From: Candidatus Kapaibacterium sp.
GTDB lineage: Bacteria > Bacteroidota > Ignavibacteria > Kapaibacteriales > UBA2268
Assembly (NCBI GenBank): GCA_026418625.1
Contig: JAOABA010000049.1
Span: 62,001-126,000 of the forward strand
Length of the DNA: 64,000 nt
Direction of reading: 5' to 3'
Every line of letters begins with the position of its first letter. Position 1 is the first letter of the stretch. The notes below the pieces were generated by a model that did no database searches, had not been told where the DNA came from, and was given only the letters and a program-made list of their open reading frames with translations. Shown here in pieces: positions 50,524 to 57,841 of this stretch. A program made the translations under genes and the position numbers.

Positions 50524-52050
50524 ATGAGAATAATACTAACACCAAATCAGATGCGACAAATTGACTCAAGAGCAATTAATGAGTTTTCAGTTCCCGGCTC
50601 AATTTTAATGGAAAATGCCGCATTAAATTCTTCAAAAATTATAACTAATATTTTAGCAAAATTAGGCTTTGAAAATCCCAAGATTTTGGTTTTTTGTGGT
50701 AGTGGTAACAATGGTGGTGATGGTTTTGCTATTGCTAGACAATTGATGAGCTTTGGCTCAGTAAAAATCTGTTGGATTGGCGATGAATCCAAAATGAGCG
50801 AAGAAACAAAACAGAATTTTAACATTTGCAAAAAGCTTGGTATTTCAATTCAACACTTGGATAGTATAGAAAATTTTGATAAAATGGATTTAGACTCAGA
50901 TTGTGTTATTGACGCATTAATTGGTGTCGGAGGTTCAGAAAACATCAAGGGCTTGGCTCTTGAAATATTAAAAATTATGAAAAATTACAACGGTTTAAAG
51001 ATTGCTATTGATGTCCCAACTGGACTAAATTCTGAAAATGGCTTTGCATCTGAATACACTTTCAAGGCAGATTATACAATCACAATGTTTGCTCCAAAAA
51101 CTGGAATGTTTTTGAACAAGGGATTTGACTCTTGCGGAAAAATCAAAATTGCTAATCTTGGTGTTCCTCTGAGTATAGCTGAAGGCTACACAGATAATTA
51201 TATTTTAGACTATGAGAGTGCGAGAAATTTATTACCCCAAAGAAAAAAAATCAGCTCTAAATTCGATTATGGAAAAGTTGTTGTTTTAGCCGGGTCAAAA
51301 CAATATCCCGGTGCAGCTGCTTTAACAGCTAATGCAGCTATAAAAAGCGGAGCTGGTCTGATTTATTTATTATCAACATCATTTCACTCCCATTTACTCC
51401 CTGAAGTTATACCAGTTGAACTTGAATCTCAGAATGATGGCACTATTTCCAAGAAATCACAGACTAAAATTGAAGAATATATCGAAAAAGCTGATTCAGT
51501 TATTATAGGACCCGGTTTATCAAATAATAAAGAGACAATCTCTTTAGTCGGAGATTTAATAAATCATTTTTCTGGCAATAAAAAAATTGTTCTTGATGCT
51601 GATGGATTAAGAGCAGTCACCCCTAAATTAAAACTTACTGAAAATGTTATTATAACACCTCATAAAGGTGAATTTAAGAGAGTAATAAATAACTTTGATA
51701 ATGAGTTTACGAATGAAAATTACTATGAATTAATAAAAGAATGGTCAAAAAAGCTGAATTGCATCATTCATCTTAAATGGGTTCCAAGCATAACAACAAA
51801 TGGAAAAAATTTCTATTGGAACATTTACGGTAATCCTGGAATGGCTTCTGGTGGAAGTGGTGATGTTCTTAGTGGTATCATTGGAGGACTTTTAGCACAG
51901 GGGTTAGATACTTTGGAGGGTGCAGCATTGGGTTCTTTTATTCATTCCAAAACCGGTGATTTTGCCCAAAAGCTCATTGGAACAAATGCTTTATCAGCGA
52001 GTGATTTATTAGCTTATTTACCCTATATCTTTAAAAGACTAGAAAGATAA
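50524..52050 (+). CDS. nnr: Bifunctional NAD(P)HX epimerase/dehydratase
   Basis: A 508-residue fusion. The N-terminal YjeF_N epimerase domain (about 1-215) has CGSGNNGGDGFAIARQL and IAIDVPTGLNSENG. The C-terminal ADP-dependent (S)-NAD(P)H-hydrate dehydratase domain (about 235-505) has KVVVLAGSKQYPGAAALTANAA, DADGLRAV and GNPGMASGGSGDVLSGIIGG, the kinase-like ADP site. It repairs hydrated NADH and NADPH. The fused form is usual. It precedes tgt by 5 bases. Confidence 0.95.
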   Translation: MRIILTPNQMRQIDSRAINEFSVPGSILMENAALNSSKIITNILAKLGFENPKILVFCGSGNNGGDGFAIARQLMSFGSVKICWIGDESKMSEETKQNFNICKKLGISIQHLDSIENFDKMDLDSDCVIDALIGVGGSENIKGLALEILKIMKNYNGLKIAIDVPTGLNSENGFASEYTFKADYTITMFAPKTGMFLNKGFDSCGKIKIANLGVPLSIAEGYTDNYILDYESARNLLPQRKKISSKFDYGKVVVLAGSKQYPGAAALTANAAIKSGAGLIYLLSTSFHSHLLPEVIPVELESQNDGTISKKSQTKIEEYIEKADSVIIGPGLSNNKETISLVGDLINHFSGNKKIVLDADGLRAVTPKLKLTENVIITPHKGEFKRVINNFDNEFTNENYYELIKEWSKKLNCIIHLKWVPSITTNGKNFYWNIYGNPGMASGGSGDVLSGIIGGLLAQGLDTLEGAALGSFIHSKTGDFAQKLIGTNALSASDLLAYLPYIFKRLER

Positions 52051-52055
52051 TTATA

Positions 52056-53189
52056 TTGGCAGACTTCTTTAAAATATTAGCAACCCAACAAGATTGCAAA
52101 GCTAGAGCAGGTGTAATCAAACTTGATAATCTCCAGATAAATACTCCCTTTTTTATGCCTGTTGGGACTCAAGGCGCTGTTAAAGCTATCGATCACAAAA
52201 CAATTAAGAGAATTGGTTTTGAAGTCATTCTATCAAATGCTTATCATCTATATTTAAGACCGGGATTAGAAGTTTTAACTGAATTTGGTGGCTTACATAA
52301 TTTTATGAACTGGGATGGTGGAATATTAACAGATAGTGGTGGATATCAGATTTATTCACTTAAAGAGCTTCGAAAACTTACAGATGACGGCGTTCATTTC
52401 AGTTCTCATATTGATGGTTCCAAGCATTTTCTAACGCCAGAGAAAGTTATTGACATTCAGCGTATTATCGGCTCTGATTTTATGATGATACTTGATGAAT
52501 GTCTGGATTATCCATCGGATTTTCAAGCAGCAAAAAGAGCAGCTGATTTATCGTTTAATTGGGCTGAAAGATCAATCAACTATTTTCGAGCAACACAAAA
52601 TGATTACAAAAAACAATTTATTTTCGCAATTTGTCAAGGCGGCATGTTCCCTGAGTTGAGAACGGAATATATTTCTAAAATAATCAATCTTGACTTTGAT
52701 TCTTTTGCCATAGGAGGATTGTCTGTTGGTGAACCTGCTGAAATGATGTATGAGATTGTTGACATCTCTACTAATTTCTTACCTTATAACAAACTCAGAT
52801 ATCTTATGGGGGTTGGAACACCGGAAAATATACTCGAAGCAATAGATTTAGGTATTGATATGTTCGATTGCGTCCTTCCTACGAGAAATGCTCGAAATGG
52901 TCAACTTTTTACAACAAACGGAAAGATAAATATAAGAAACGCAAAATATAAATTTTCAAAGGAACCAATTGATGAAGCATTAGATTCTGAAATAAGTCAA
53001 TATTACACTTTAGGATATCTAAGACATTTATTTTTATCAAAAGAAATATTAGCTTTGCAAATAGCTACCCATCAAAATTTAGCATTTTATCACTGGCTGT
53101 TGAAAACCGCTCGTGAAAAAATACTTGATGGAAGCTATCGTCAATGGAAAAACTATATTTTAAATAAATTAAATAATTTTATTGAGTAA
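52056..53189 (+). CDS. tgt: Queuine/preQ1 tRNA-ribosyltransferase lacking the zinc cysteines
   Basis: A 377-residue Tgt, which exchanges guanine 34 for a 7-deazaguanine in tRNA. The general acid/base D93 is in LTDSGGYQIYSL, and the nucleophile D271 is in GIDMFDCVLPTRNARNG. The region that normally holds the CxCx2C zinc site (about 305-325) reads DEALDSEISQYYTLGYLRHLF with no Cys, and the following His is shifted to ATHQNL. This form is, as far as I recall, common in Bacteroidota. The start is TTG, 5 bases after the NAD(P)HX gene. yajC follows. Confidence 0.93.
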   Translation: MADFFKILATQQDCKARAGVIKLDNLQINTPFFMPVGTQGAVKAIDHKTIKRIGFEVILSNAYHLYLRPGLEVLTEFGGLHNFMNWDGGILTDSGGYQIYSLKELRKLTDDGVHFSSHIDGSKHFLTPEKVIDIQRIIGSDFMMILDECLDYPSDFQAAKRAADLSFNWAERSINYFRATQNDYKKQFIFAICQGGMFPELRTEYISKIINLDFDSFAIGGLSVGEPAEMMYEIVDISTNFLPYNKLRYLMGVGTPENILEAIDLGIDMFDCVLPTRNARNGQLFTTNGKINIRNAKYKFSKEPIDEALDSEISQYYTLGYLRHLFLSKEILALQIATHQNLAFYHWLLKTAREKILDGSYRQWKNYILNKLNNFIE

Positions 53190-53203: not shown

Positions 53204-53530
53204 ATGAGTTTTTTTAATTTACAACTTTTTGGAACTTTTTTTGCACAAGCCGCTCCTGAAGCTGCTCCGGGAAATTCAATGATTTTCACTTTGATAATGT
53301 TTGGAGCTATCATTCTGATTATGTATTTCTTAATGATTAGACCACAGCAAAAAAGACAAAAAGAACATCAAAAAATGCTTGATAGCTTGAGAAAAGGCGA
53401 CAAAGTCATCACCGCCTCAGGTATGCATGGAACCATTACTGATATTGATGGTAATATTTTTACAATTCAAATAGCTGATAACGTAAAAGTTCAGTTTGAA
53501 AAAAATGCTATAGCAGCCAAGAAACAATAA
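53204..53530 (+). CDS. yajC: Preprotein translocase subunit YajC
   Basis: A 108-residue YajC with one membrane helix (about 30-48, IFTLIMFGAIILIMYFLMIRPQQ) and a small soluble domain with DKVITASGMHGTITDIDGN and QIADNVKVQFEKNAI. It associates with SecDF-YidC. The gene lies just after tgt, a conserved neighbour pair. secD and secF do not follow here; ribBA does. Confidence 0.96.
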   Translation: MSFFNLQLFGTFFAQAAPEAAPGNSMIFTLIMFGAIILIMYFLMIRPQQKRQKEHQKMLDSLRKGDKVITASGMHGTITDIDGNIFTIQIADNVKVQFEKNAIAAKKQ

Positions 53531-54787: not shown

Positions 54788-54830
54788 TGTTGAATTGTTA
54801 AATTCCAATTAACAATTCAACATTTTTTTT
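54788..54830 (+). terminator. Strong intrinsic terminator after ribBA
   Basis: A 14-bp perfect stem (TGTTGAATTGTTAA with TTAACAATTCAACA, arms 54788-54801 and 54809-54822) and a 7-base loop are followed by eight T residues. It separates ribBA from greA. Confidence 0.9.
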
Positions 54831-55324: not shown

Positions 55325-57841
55325 TTATAATCCGGTTATTAAACTTCCAACCTGATAAAATATGAAGGATAAGATCCACGCTAATGTTGTTGTATAAACA
55401 GCAATAAATATTGCCCATTTCCAACCACCAGATTCCCGTTTAATTGCTGATATTACTCCTACGCAGGGGAAGTAAATCAAGATAAATATCAAATAAGAAA
55501 ATGCTACAAGTGGGTTAAATACTAATTGACCTTTTTTATCACCAGAAGTATAAGTTTGCTGCCTTAATTTATTAATTAGTTGTTGTTCATCATCTTCGCC
55601 AGCTTGATATAATACACCTAAAGTCCCTACAACAACCTCTTTAGCTGATAACCCAGACAATAAACCAATACTCATTTTCCAGTCAAATCCTAAAGGCTCC
55701 ATAACAGGTAAAATAAACAGACCAATTCTACCAATAAAAGATTGTTCCTGCCTTTCTGCTTCTTTTTCCAATTCAAGATTTTTAATGACCTGATTCATCT
55801 CTGCAGAAATCTGATTTTGCTTGGCTTTATCATTTTTAGCTTCGTCTATTAATAATTGATAATTTGCTTTTGTTGTTGATATAAGGTCATCATAATCTCT
55901 TGAATAATTTGCTTCTCTTGGAAAATATCCAAGAAACCATATAATTACTGACGCAATTAAAATTACTCCACCTACCTTTTTCAAATATTGTTTTGCTCTA
56001 TACCACATATGTTTTAATATACTTTTAAAAGTAGGAAGCCTGTAAGGTGGCAGTTCCATTACAAAAGGTATATCCTCTTTTTTAAAAAGTGTTTTTCTAA
56101 AAAGCAATGCTGACAATAGTGCCAGTGTAACTCCAAGTAAATAAAGAGAAAACAGAATTATTGATTGATATGAATCAAAAAAAGCACTAATAAACAAAAT
56201 AAAAACCGTCAATCTTGCAGAACAAGACATAAAAGGGTTTATGAGCATTGTTATTAGTCTGTCTTTTTTACTTTCAATTATTCTGGATGACATAATTGCA
56301 GGAACGTTGCAGCCAAATCCCATTAATAAAGGTATAAATGATTTCCCGTGTAATCCAATTTTGTGCATTGCCTTGTCCATTATGAAGACTGCCCTTGCCA
56401 TATAACCGGTGTCTTCCATTATGGAAATAAAAAAGTAAAGTAAAACAATATTTGGAAGAAAAGCCAAAACACTACCAGAACCCCCTAATATACCCTGTAT
56501 AAGAAAATCTTTAAAAATACCATCTGATAAATATGTTGAAATAAGCATACCCAAGTAATTCACTCCAGCCTCGATCCATTTCATTGGATACTCTCCAATT
56601 GTAAATGTCATAAAAAAAGTGAACCACATAAAAAAAAGAAATATGGGTATTCCCCAAAATCTATGAGTGATGATTTTGTCAATTAACTCGGTCTTAGTAA
56701 CTTTTACTTGTTTGTTCTGCTTATATGACTCTTTCAATGCACCTGCAATAAAACCGTAACGAGCATCAGTGATTAGACTTTCCGTATCAGTTTTATGGTC
56801 AGACTCTAATTTCTTGATGATTTTATCTAATTTTAATTTAATTTCATCATAGTTTTTTAATTTTTTTATTAGTTCAAGAATATCACTGTCTTTTTCTAAA
56901 AGCTTTATTGCCAAAAATCTTGATGAATAATTAGTAGTTATTTCAACATCTCCAGACTTATATATTAGATCTTGTAGTTCTTTTATATAATTTTCTAAAT
57001 CTAAGCCATAATTTATGTGAATATGTCGAACGGTTTCATCTTTGTCCTCATAAACCTCGATAATTTTATTTAAAAGTTCCGATATTCCTGTTCCTTTAGA
57101 AGCAACTGTTGGGACAAATGGTATTCCTAAAAGTTCCCCGAATTTCTTATAATCAAACTTATCCCCTTTTTCTAACAGTTCATCATAAATATTCAAAGCC
57201 ACTATGACTTTGATATCCATATCAATTAATTGTGTAGTTAAATATAAATTCCTCTCGAGATTTGAAGCATCAATTATGTTTACAACAATATCGGGTGTAT
57301 TTTTTGTAATAAAATCTCTAACAAATAATTCCTCTGGACTATAAGCTGTAATGGAGTAGGTCCCGGGTAGATCAACAAGCTCAATTACATAATCATTAAT
57401 TTTAACTTTACCAAATTTAGCATCAATTGTTACTCCACCATAATTTCCAACTCTTTCTCTTAAACCAGATGCGTAATTAAAAATAGTTGTTTTGCCTGAA
57501 TTAGGATTGCCAACCAAGGCAACTGTGATTTCTTTTTCCTTGTTCTTACCATTAGTTTTTATTGTTTTACTATCAATAACCCCTTCATAAGTTATTTTAT
57601 CAACTGAATGATCATCATTAGCTTCAATTACATCTATTAATTCAGCTTCAGAATTTCTTAATGATATATCATAACCCATAATTCTGTATTCAATTGGATC
57701 GTTCAGCGGTGCCTTTTTAATTGGTTGAATTTCTTTACCCGGAACGAAACCCATTTCCATTATTCTCTTCCTGAATGCTCCACGCCCCCTAACTCTTGAT
57801 ATTACTGCTTTTTGCCCTATTCTAAGTTCACTTAACTTCAT
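55325..57841 (-). CDS. feoB: Ferrous iron transporter FeoB with fused FeoA domain
   Basis: An 838-residue protein. Residues 1-75 are a FeoA/SH3-like domain (VKLSELRIGQ-type start, RIMEMGFVPGKEI). A G-protein domain follows with GNPNSGKTT (111-119), YGGVTIDA, DLPGTYSITAYSPEE and NIYDE (NxxD). The C-terminal membrane domain has the FeoB gate motifs (LLMGFGCNVPAIMSSRII, FIPLL, MSCSARLTVFILF and LSGLSAKEVVVGTLG). A charged coiled loop occupies about 650-700. It should import Fe2+. The start is ATG at 57841. Confidence 0.95.
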   Translation of the reverse strand: MKLSELRIGQKAVISRVRGRGAFRKRIMEMGFVPGKEIQPIKKAPLNDPIEYRIMGYDISLRNSEAELIDVIEANDDHSVDKITYEGVIDSKTIKTNGKNKEKEITVALVGNPNSGKTTIFNYASGLRERVGNYGGVTIDAKFGKVKINDYVIELVDLPGTYSITAYSPEELFVRDFITKNTPDIVVNIIDASNLERNLYLTTQLIDMDIKVIVALNIYDELLEKGDKFDYKKFGELLGIPFVPTVASKGTGISELLNKIIEVYEDKDETVRHIHINYGLDLENYIKELQDLIYKSGDVEITTNYSSRFLAIKLLEKDSDILELIKKLKNYDEIKLKLDKIIKKLESDHKTDTESLITDARYGFIAGALKESYKQNKQVKVTKTELIDKIITHRFWGIPIFLFFMWFTFFMTFTIGEYPMKWIEAGVNYLGMLISTYLSDGIFKDFLIQGILGGSGSVLAFLPNIVLLYFFISIMEDTGYMARAVFIMDKAMHKIGLHGKSFIPLLMGFGCNVPAIMSSRIIESKKDRLITMLINPFMSCSARLTVFILFISAFFDSYQSIILFSLYLLGVTLALLSALLFRKTLFKKEDIPFVMELPPYRLPTFKSILKHMWYRAKQYLKKVGGVILIASVIIWFLGYFPREANYSRDYDDLISTTKANYQLLIDEAKNDKAKQNQISAEMNQVIKNLELEKEAERQEQSFIGRIGLFILPVMEPLGFDWKMSIGLLSGLSAKEVVVGTLGVLYQAGEDDEQQLINKLRQQTYTSGDKKGQLVFNPLVAFSYLIFILIYFPCVGVISAIKRESGGWKWAIFIAVYTTTLAWILSFIFYQVGSLITGL

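Follow-up and report, generated by a model that had tools for sequence, protein, structure and literature searches.

The tRNA guanosine(34) transglycosylase (Tgt) of Escherichia coli is reportedly a zinc metalloprotein, a finding credited to Chong in 1995, and in the Zymomonas mobilis enzyme the residues D156, C158, Q203 and G230 recognise the base. Published accounts count the zinc domain as one of the two hallmarks of TGT (PMC6165067), call the zinc residues of Tgt conserved (PMC4425180) and state that TGT enzymes "require zinc for activity" (PMC9508795). For Z. mobilis Tgt, catalytic roles have been assigned to Asp102 and Asp280 (PMC4425180, PMC6165067), and F92 together with W326, Y330 and H333 of the other chain has been described as an aromatic hot spot in the dimer interface (PMC5395182).

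Glutamyl-tRNA synthetase, which is another enzyme with another fold, offers a parallel: its zinc motif is missing in many bacteria and, as tested by domain swaps, the E. coli enzyme functions with a zinc-free domain, fold and function being kept and hydrogen bonds and stacking replacing the zinc (PMC4381286). Ribosomal protein S4, a core translation protein, also occurs across bacteria in zinc (C+) and zinc-free (C-) forms, as does Tgt here, but both forms of S4 can coexist and gene transfer has been argued for them (PMC3087516), whereas the genome studied here has a single Tgt. A literature search covering titles and abstract openings, with subscription journals mostly outside its scope, returned no report of a Tgt without zinc ligands, and neither metal analysis nor activity data for such a Tgt were found in the literature.

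The tgt gene and its zinc-ligand positions

The gene described here lies in a window of 64,000 nucleotides (the whole stretch of DNA that was analysed) from Candidatus Kapaibacterium sp., and is listed with its neighbours in Table 1. Its product scores 450.5 bits over residues 11-373 with the NCBIfam equivalog TIGR00430, for a cut-off of 306.75, and 467.9 bits with the Pfam TGT domain. The profiles of archaeosine TgtA/ArcS remain below their cut-offs (TIGR00432, 119.8 vs 350 bits; NF040592, 30 vs 440). Score, catalytic residues and fold all assign the protein to the Tgt family, the zinc hallmark being the one that fails, and it is the sole TGT-family match in its own genome (G000; 3.3 Mb, 96% complete). 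Tgt of E. coli K-12 (L035; PDB 10fa and 10fb by sequence) resembles it in family, tgt-yajC order and catalytic residues, but has the four ligands and a queA gene directly upstream, where the window has a YjeF/Carb_kinase fusion and the queA of the genome is found on another contig.

Table 1. Features of the tgt region and their positions in the window.
Feature	Position	Strand	Remarks
YjeF_N + Carb_kinase fusion	50524..52050	+	directly 5' of tgt; context only
tgt, tRNA guanosine(34) transglycosylase, 377 aa	52056..53189	+	TTG start per ORF caller
Catalytic D93	52332..52334	+	Z. mobilis D102; alignment
Catalytic nucleophile D271	52866..52868	+	Z. mobilis D280; alignment
Zinc-ligand place L309-D-S311-E-I-S314	52980..52997	+	CxCx2C in zinc-type Tgt; 309/311/314 = Z. 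mobilis C318, C320, C323 and E. coli C302, C304, C307 (counted in alignment)
Y317, Y321, H324	53004..53027	+	Z. mobilis W326, Y330, H333, dimer-interface hot spot
H339	53070..53072	+	"shifted" His of the original prediction; not conserved, 3/41 order members
Q340, fourth zinc-ligand place	53073..53075	+	Z. mobilis H349; alignment
yajC	53204..53530	+	directly 3' of tgt; gene order tgt-yajC as in E. coli

No Rfam match was found in the 64-kb window at the gathering threshold, promoter-like sites occurred at chance level only, and the repeats inside tgt were trivial. A terminator-like hairpin of 14 pairs followed by T8 is located on the + strand at 54788-54822, between ribBA and greA, and the tgt-yajC-ribBA stretch may end there. 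Further along, the minus strand at 55325-57841 encodes a FeoA + FeoB fusion as a single protein of 838 aa.

Alignment with Zymomonas, E. coli and Bacteroidota Tgt confirms the original prediction that the zinc cysteines are absent before GYLRHLF, and extends the loss to all four ligands. Both the Z. mobilis and the E. coli proteins align without gaps through the zinc region, and their CHCAVC...H and CDCYTC...H positions correspond to L309-S311-S314...Q340 in the window Tgt, of which C272 is the last Cys. Judging from these alignments, the CxCx2C + His set is missing as a whole. Z. mobilis Tgt (1pud, 1efz), with 42-43% identity, is otherwise similar to the window protein in full-length fold, catalytic Asp pair, base-recognition residues and dimer hot spot, and differs by Cys-Cys-Cys-His in place of Leu-Ser-Ser-Gln.

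Chance or a sequencing error is excluded, since the copy from the one same-genus genome searched (L024) has the identical four residues at these places and since none of the 42 sequences of the order (window counted, one cut N-terminally) has the three ligand Cys. Among 41 order members, 36 have Leu, Ile or Val at position 309 and 37 have Ser at position 314; at position 340, Gln occurs 27 times and His 14 times, while position 311 is Ser, Asn, Cys or Ala. The His that had been proposed to be shifted by one position does exist, as H339, but it is not a moved ligand because only 3/41 members have a His there; the canonical fourth-ligand His is still present in 14/42.

The reading favoured here, with a probability of about 0.83, is that the window gene encodes a working Tgt in which protein contacts, and not a zinc ion, hold the C-terminal subdomain together.

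Distribution and history of the zinc-ligand set

The comparison was based on 255 aligned Tgt sequences, which comprise that of the window, 41 from its order, 87 from other families of the class, 24 from other families of the phylum and, for the remainder, 80 genome_contigs loci, 3 viral-contig loci and 19 named plasmid or E. coli records. Left out were L001 and L026 (the window gene itself), L030 (a 78-base match), L034 (which ends before the site) and L166 and L167 (QueA); the N-terminally cut L029 was kept in the alignment and excluded from conserved-column and spacing counts and from trees. These rows represent a sample and not a census: the genome_contigs rows are the best 80 of 591 candidates and, of 125 other rows, 45 were best-scoring matches and 80 were picked by family. 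Zinc-type sequences of the class are likely over-represented, since the family model probably rewards the cysteines.

Outside the order of the window, 69/87 sampled class sequences have CCC+His, in a sample biased towards them, and the class rows without the three Cys fall in families f18 (6/6), f20 (8/8), f22 (3/3) and f15 (1/4). In the f15 case, one member (L221) has Phe-Ser-Asn with the His kept while L129, L222 and L223 have CCC+His; this case appears recent, and its two forms would lend themselves well to being compared directly for zinc. In other families of the phylum, the three Cys occur in 3/24 sequences, f23 keeping CCC+His in 3/3, and among the best 80 of 591 genome_contigs loci, nearly all titled as Bacteroidota groups, they occur in 2 and are absent from 78. 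The original prediction had pointed to the same loss in Bacteroidota, which is borne out for Bacteroidia by these 78 loci but does not extend to the whole phylum, given the zinc-type rows of the class and of f23. Bacteroidia Tgt (Parabacteroides, L036; Bacteroides, L260) resemble that of the window in lacking the zinc Cys with the same spacing; they differ in often having Asp at the third place and His at the fourth, and their genomes lie apart from the order in the RpoB tree (see below). The zinc set is present in all three viral-contig loci compared, out of four (L031-L033). Plasmid records of Enterobacteriaceae (e.g. NZ_CP004000.1, NZ_KT935446.1) list divergent tgt genes (~29-33% identity) along with the 16S rRNA methyltransferase genes rmtD, rmtE and rmtG.

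In the 255 rows, the zinc set follows an all-or-none pattern: CCC+His was found in 89 and CCC without His in 0, exactly two Cys in 0, one Cys in 37 and no Cys in 129, and the ligand His is absent solely in rows from which ligand Cys are missing. Such a pattern would be expected of a site that is kept complete or else released from constraint; it is a description and not a test, since the rows are related and a sign test of Cys versus His loss over independent pairs rested on 2 pairs only, with no power. Spacing is nearly invariant in the rows without CCC, with six residues for 309-314 in 162/165 and 27 residues for 314-340 in 163/165, and the replacement residues vary by group (LSS/Q, GSD/H, FNC/Q, TSS/H, SCT/N). 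In Bacteroidia-type rows, position 314 is often Asp, and the fourth place is then His in 67/67, although these 67 rows may reflect one inherited event.

In other phyla, 12 of 16 named records have the full set and the remaining 4 all belong to Hyphomicrobiales, namely two Sinorhizobium, one Shinella and one Methylobacterium (L040, L248, L249, L252), with Ser-Cys-Thr/Ala and Asn/Ser at the ligand places. Hyphomicrobiales apparently represent a separate zinc-less case inside Alphaproteobacteria. Within this class, Sphingomonas (L250), Paracoccus (L251) and Magnetococcus (L258) keep the zinc set. The Tgt of S. meliloti Ak57 (L040), with Ser-Cys-Thr and Asn, resembles that of the window in its kept catalytic residues and broken zinc set; it differs in being alphaproteobacterial and in its replacement residues, retains one Cys and apparently goes back to a separate loss. 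For S. meliloti 1021, one study reports that an insertion mutant of tgt (SMc01206) no longer had an effect on HeLa cells in low-serum medium, that preQ1 rescued queC and queF mutants but not the tgt mutant, and that the tgt mutant had a profound nitrogen-fixation defect in symbiosis, whereas the symbiotic phenotype of a queA mutant was slight or absent; the complementation described is of queF only (PMC3568095). These phenotypes may provide in vivo support, the strongest from outside, for function without the zinc set, through a link between strains that is inferred: tgt of 1021 is on the main chromosome and that of Ak57 on a 3.7-Mb record labelled pSymB, where it follows queA, and the queA-tgt order fits.

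The history of the site was followed on "quick" trees, those of Tgt being built without the zinc columns and that of RpoB from 29 of the genomes plus E. coli, leaving out G325 (RpoB in split frames) and Hyphomicrobiales. On the RpoB tree, of which some deep branches are weak (16, 31, 32, 41), the state changes 5 times; the order of the window joins f18 (support 95), apart from f20/f22, the f15 member and the Chlorobiaceae-like and Bacteroidia-like groups. With Hyphomicrobiales added, this makes about six changes. They are read as losses, a reading inferred from the unlikelihood of repeated regain of four ligands, as the number of changes does not by itself separate losses from gains.

The alternative that survives best, and that nevertheless appears unlikely, is that a single old zinc-less form was kept, lost or transferred between lineages, as proposed for S4 (PMC3087516), with no need for several losses. 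By the Tgt gene tree alone, a single clade of the zinc-less Bacteroidota-type sequences is not rejected (57 zinc-less rows of the phylum in the 102-row set; dlnL 50.5, p-AU 0.10), but the best Tgt trees need 6 changes with both the 186-row and the 102-row sets, and the RpoB tree rejects the 18 zinc-less genomes as one clade (dlnL 260, p-AU 5.6e-53). Against a single form also stand the replacement residues, which differ between groups, and the position of L221 among zinc-type members of its own family in the Tgt tree (support 92) as well as that of its genome in the RpoB tree (98). The Tgt without zinc ligands seen in the window is shared by its whole sampled order, as one of several parallel cases, and very probably works. 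The original prediction had further taken the loss as support for the taxonomic placement; the phylum itself agrees with the relatives found, but the zinc state is a poor marker of it, since class and f23 rows are of zinc type, several changes occur on the organism tree and Hyphomicrobiales belong to another phylum.

Queuosine pathway, catalytic residues and predicted fold

QueC, QueA and QueG are present in the genome of the window, with QueC and QueG confirmed at the protein level; a search of this genome for QueH, in which 2/14 controls matched, gave no match, QueG being present in its stead. A second QueA-like protein of ~436 aa, with an insert between two QueA-profile parts, is encoded in this genome (L301; G000:C10:79255-80526, minus strand), and both this type and canonical QueA were found in 30/30 genomes searched (own included). 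The four C-terminal Cys of QueC, which presumably bind zinc, are kept in this genome and in 3 relatives (4/4 sequences, in a count that leaves out L297 and L299).

This conservation bears on a second alternative, in which the ligands were lost by adaptation to scarce zinc, as part of a general zinc sparing in the genome. Such sparing would recall the Zur-controlled queD2 copies described for low zinc (PMC9508795), but QueC keeps its cysteines, a second, zinc-type Tgt is absent from the genome, and the state is common to the whole sampled order and to other large groups. As a cause, zinc sparing is not favoured and is slightly less likely than a single old form.

As initially proposed, both catalytic aspartates are intact: D93 and D271 align with Asp102 and Asp280 of Z. 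mobilis, and Asp is found at both positions in 254/254 counted rows, N-terminally cut L029 being left out. The base-recognition residues align with D147, C149, Q194 and G221 of the window protein, and these four and the two aspartates are kept in 41/41 order members. The counterparts of the Z. mobilis dimer hot spot are F83, Y317, Y321 and H324, with Y321 and H324 kept in 41/41 order members, F83 in 40/41 and an aromatic residue at position 317 in 35/41. In the zinc-type Tgt of f55 (L182-L187), the hot-spot His, H333 in Z. mobilis, is replaced by Asn in 4/6 sequences and by Met in 1/6.

The AlphaFold model of the window Tgt has a mean pLDDT of 91.3, with the blocks at 281-370 reaching 95-98 and a weak spot in the blocks at 91-110, at and behind D93 (65 and 73). 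The best PDB matches are 7apl (Z 50.9, 368 aligned, 1.8 A) and 1pud of Z. mobilis (Z 50.8, 366 aligned, 1.8 A), and the TM score with 1efz, also of Z. mobilis, is 0.93; the protein is accordingly predicted to have the TIM-barrel with the C-terminal helical subdomain. The modelling that had been proposed as a check predicts the former zinc subdomain with high confidence, and in the zinc-type control (L041) the same four helices of the C-terminal part recur with an offset of ten residues (pLDDT 94-98). As AlphaFold places no metal, the model shows only that the sequence fits the TGT fold.

A third alternative, that a metal is still bound at or near the old site by Asp306, His324, His339, His346 or water, appears improbable, and more so than the two above. 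D306, H324 and E330 are indeed conserved nearby, the His of the fourth place is kept in 121/165 sequences without CCC, and the window protein has a His adjoining that place. A comparison of the order columns with the zinc-type rows, however, found no newly conserved Cys, His, Asp or Glu that could serve as replacement ligands and would have spoken against the original prediction; D306, H324 and E330 are equally conserved in zinc-type rows (fractions 0.94, 0.94 and 1.00), H324 is the dimer hot-spot His, H339 is confined to 3/41 order members and position 340 is Gln in 27/41. W347 was considered as a compensating residue, as it occurs in 125/165 zinc-less rows and 39/41 order members, but it is also found in 21/89 zinc-type rows and no claim is made for it.

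Selection, as estimated from the window tgt and its same-genus counterpart L024 (85% identity), is purifying, with a dN/dS of 0.075 for the 377 codons and of 0.10 for 60 codons around the zinc region. The weakest alternative, that the gene is decaying or serves another function and lost its zinc site since Tgt activity is no longer selected, could call upon the loss of all four ligands from an enzyme said to require zinc (PMC9508795), but is very improbable given this dN/dS, the intact catalytic and base-recognition positions checked, the presence of queC, queA and queG and the detection of Tgt above cut-off in 27/30 genomes (own included). With the catalytic Asp and the dimer cluster intact, the low dN/dS and the three pathway genes in the genome, the window tgt is very probably alive, and the state, found throughout the order (three ligand Cys in 0/42), is a lineage feature and very probably not the mark of a dead gene, as originally suggested.

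Proposed mechanism and implications

In the favoured reading of a working Tgt held by protein contacts, the window enzyme would act in the queuosine pathway by putting preQ1 in the place of guanine 34, with no metal bound at the former zinc site. The place of the tetrahedron would be filled by other side chains that depend on the group: in the order, Leu/Ile/Val at 309, Ser/Asn/Cys/Ala at 311, Ser at 314 and Gln/His at 340, and in Bacteroidia, Asp314 with His340. These residues may lock the loop against the long helix and thereby keep the dimer-interface helix and the tRNA-binding surface in place, so that zinc in Tgt would act as an exchangeable structural staple and not as a requirement.

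It is somewhat probable, although less so than the reading of the window gene itself, that Tgt can, as a rule of its evolution, dispense with zinc, with about six lineages having each swapped the tetrahedron for a protein-only core of their own while keeping queuosine synthesis. If so, the rule would include Bacteroidia of the human gut and would overturn the statement that TGT needs zinc. If whole lineages run without zinc, the metal would be a replaceable staple, and nature would have supplied the designs for a Tgt free of zinc. Bacteria would then also differ in whether their queuosine synthesis depends on zinc, a point raised in work on metal homeostasis, and the dimer interface that adjoins the site, against which Tgt inhibitors are directed, may be more stable in one kind of Tgt than in the other.
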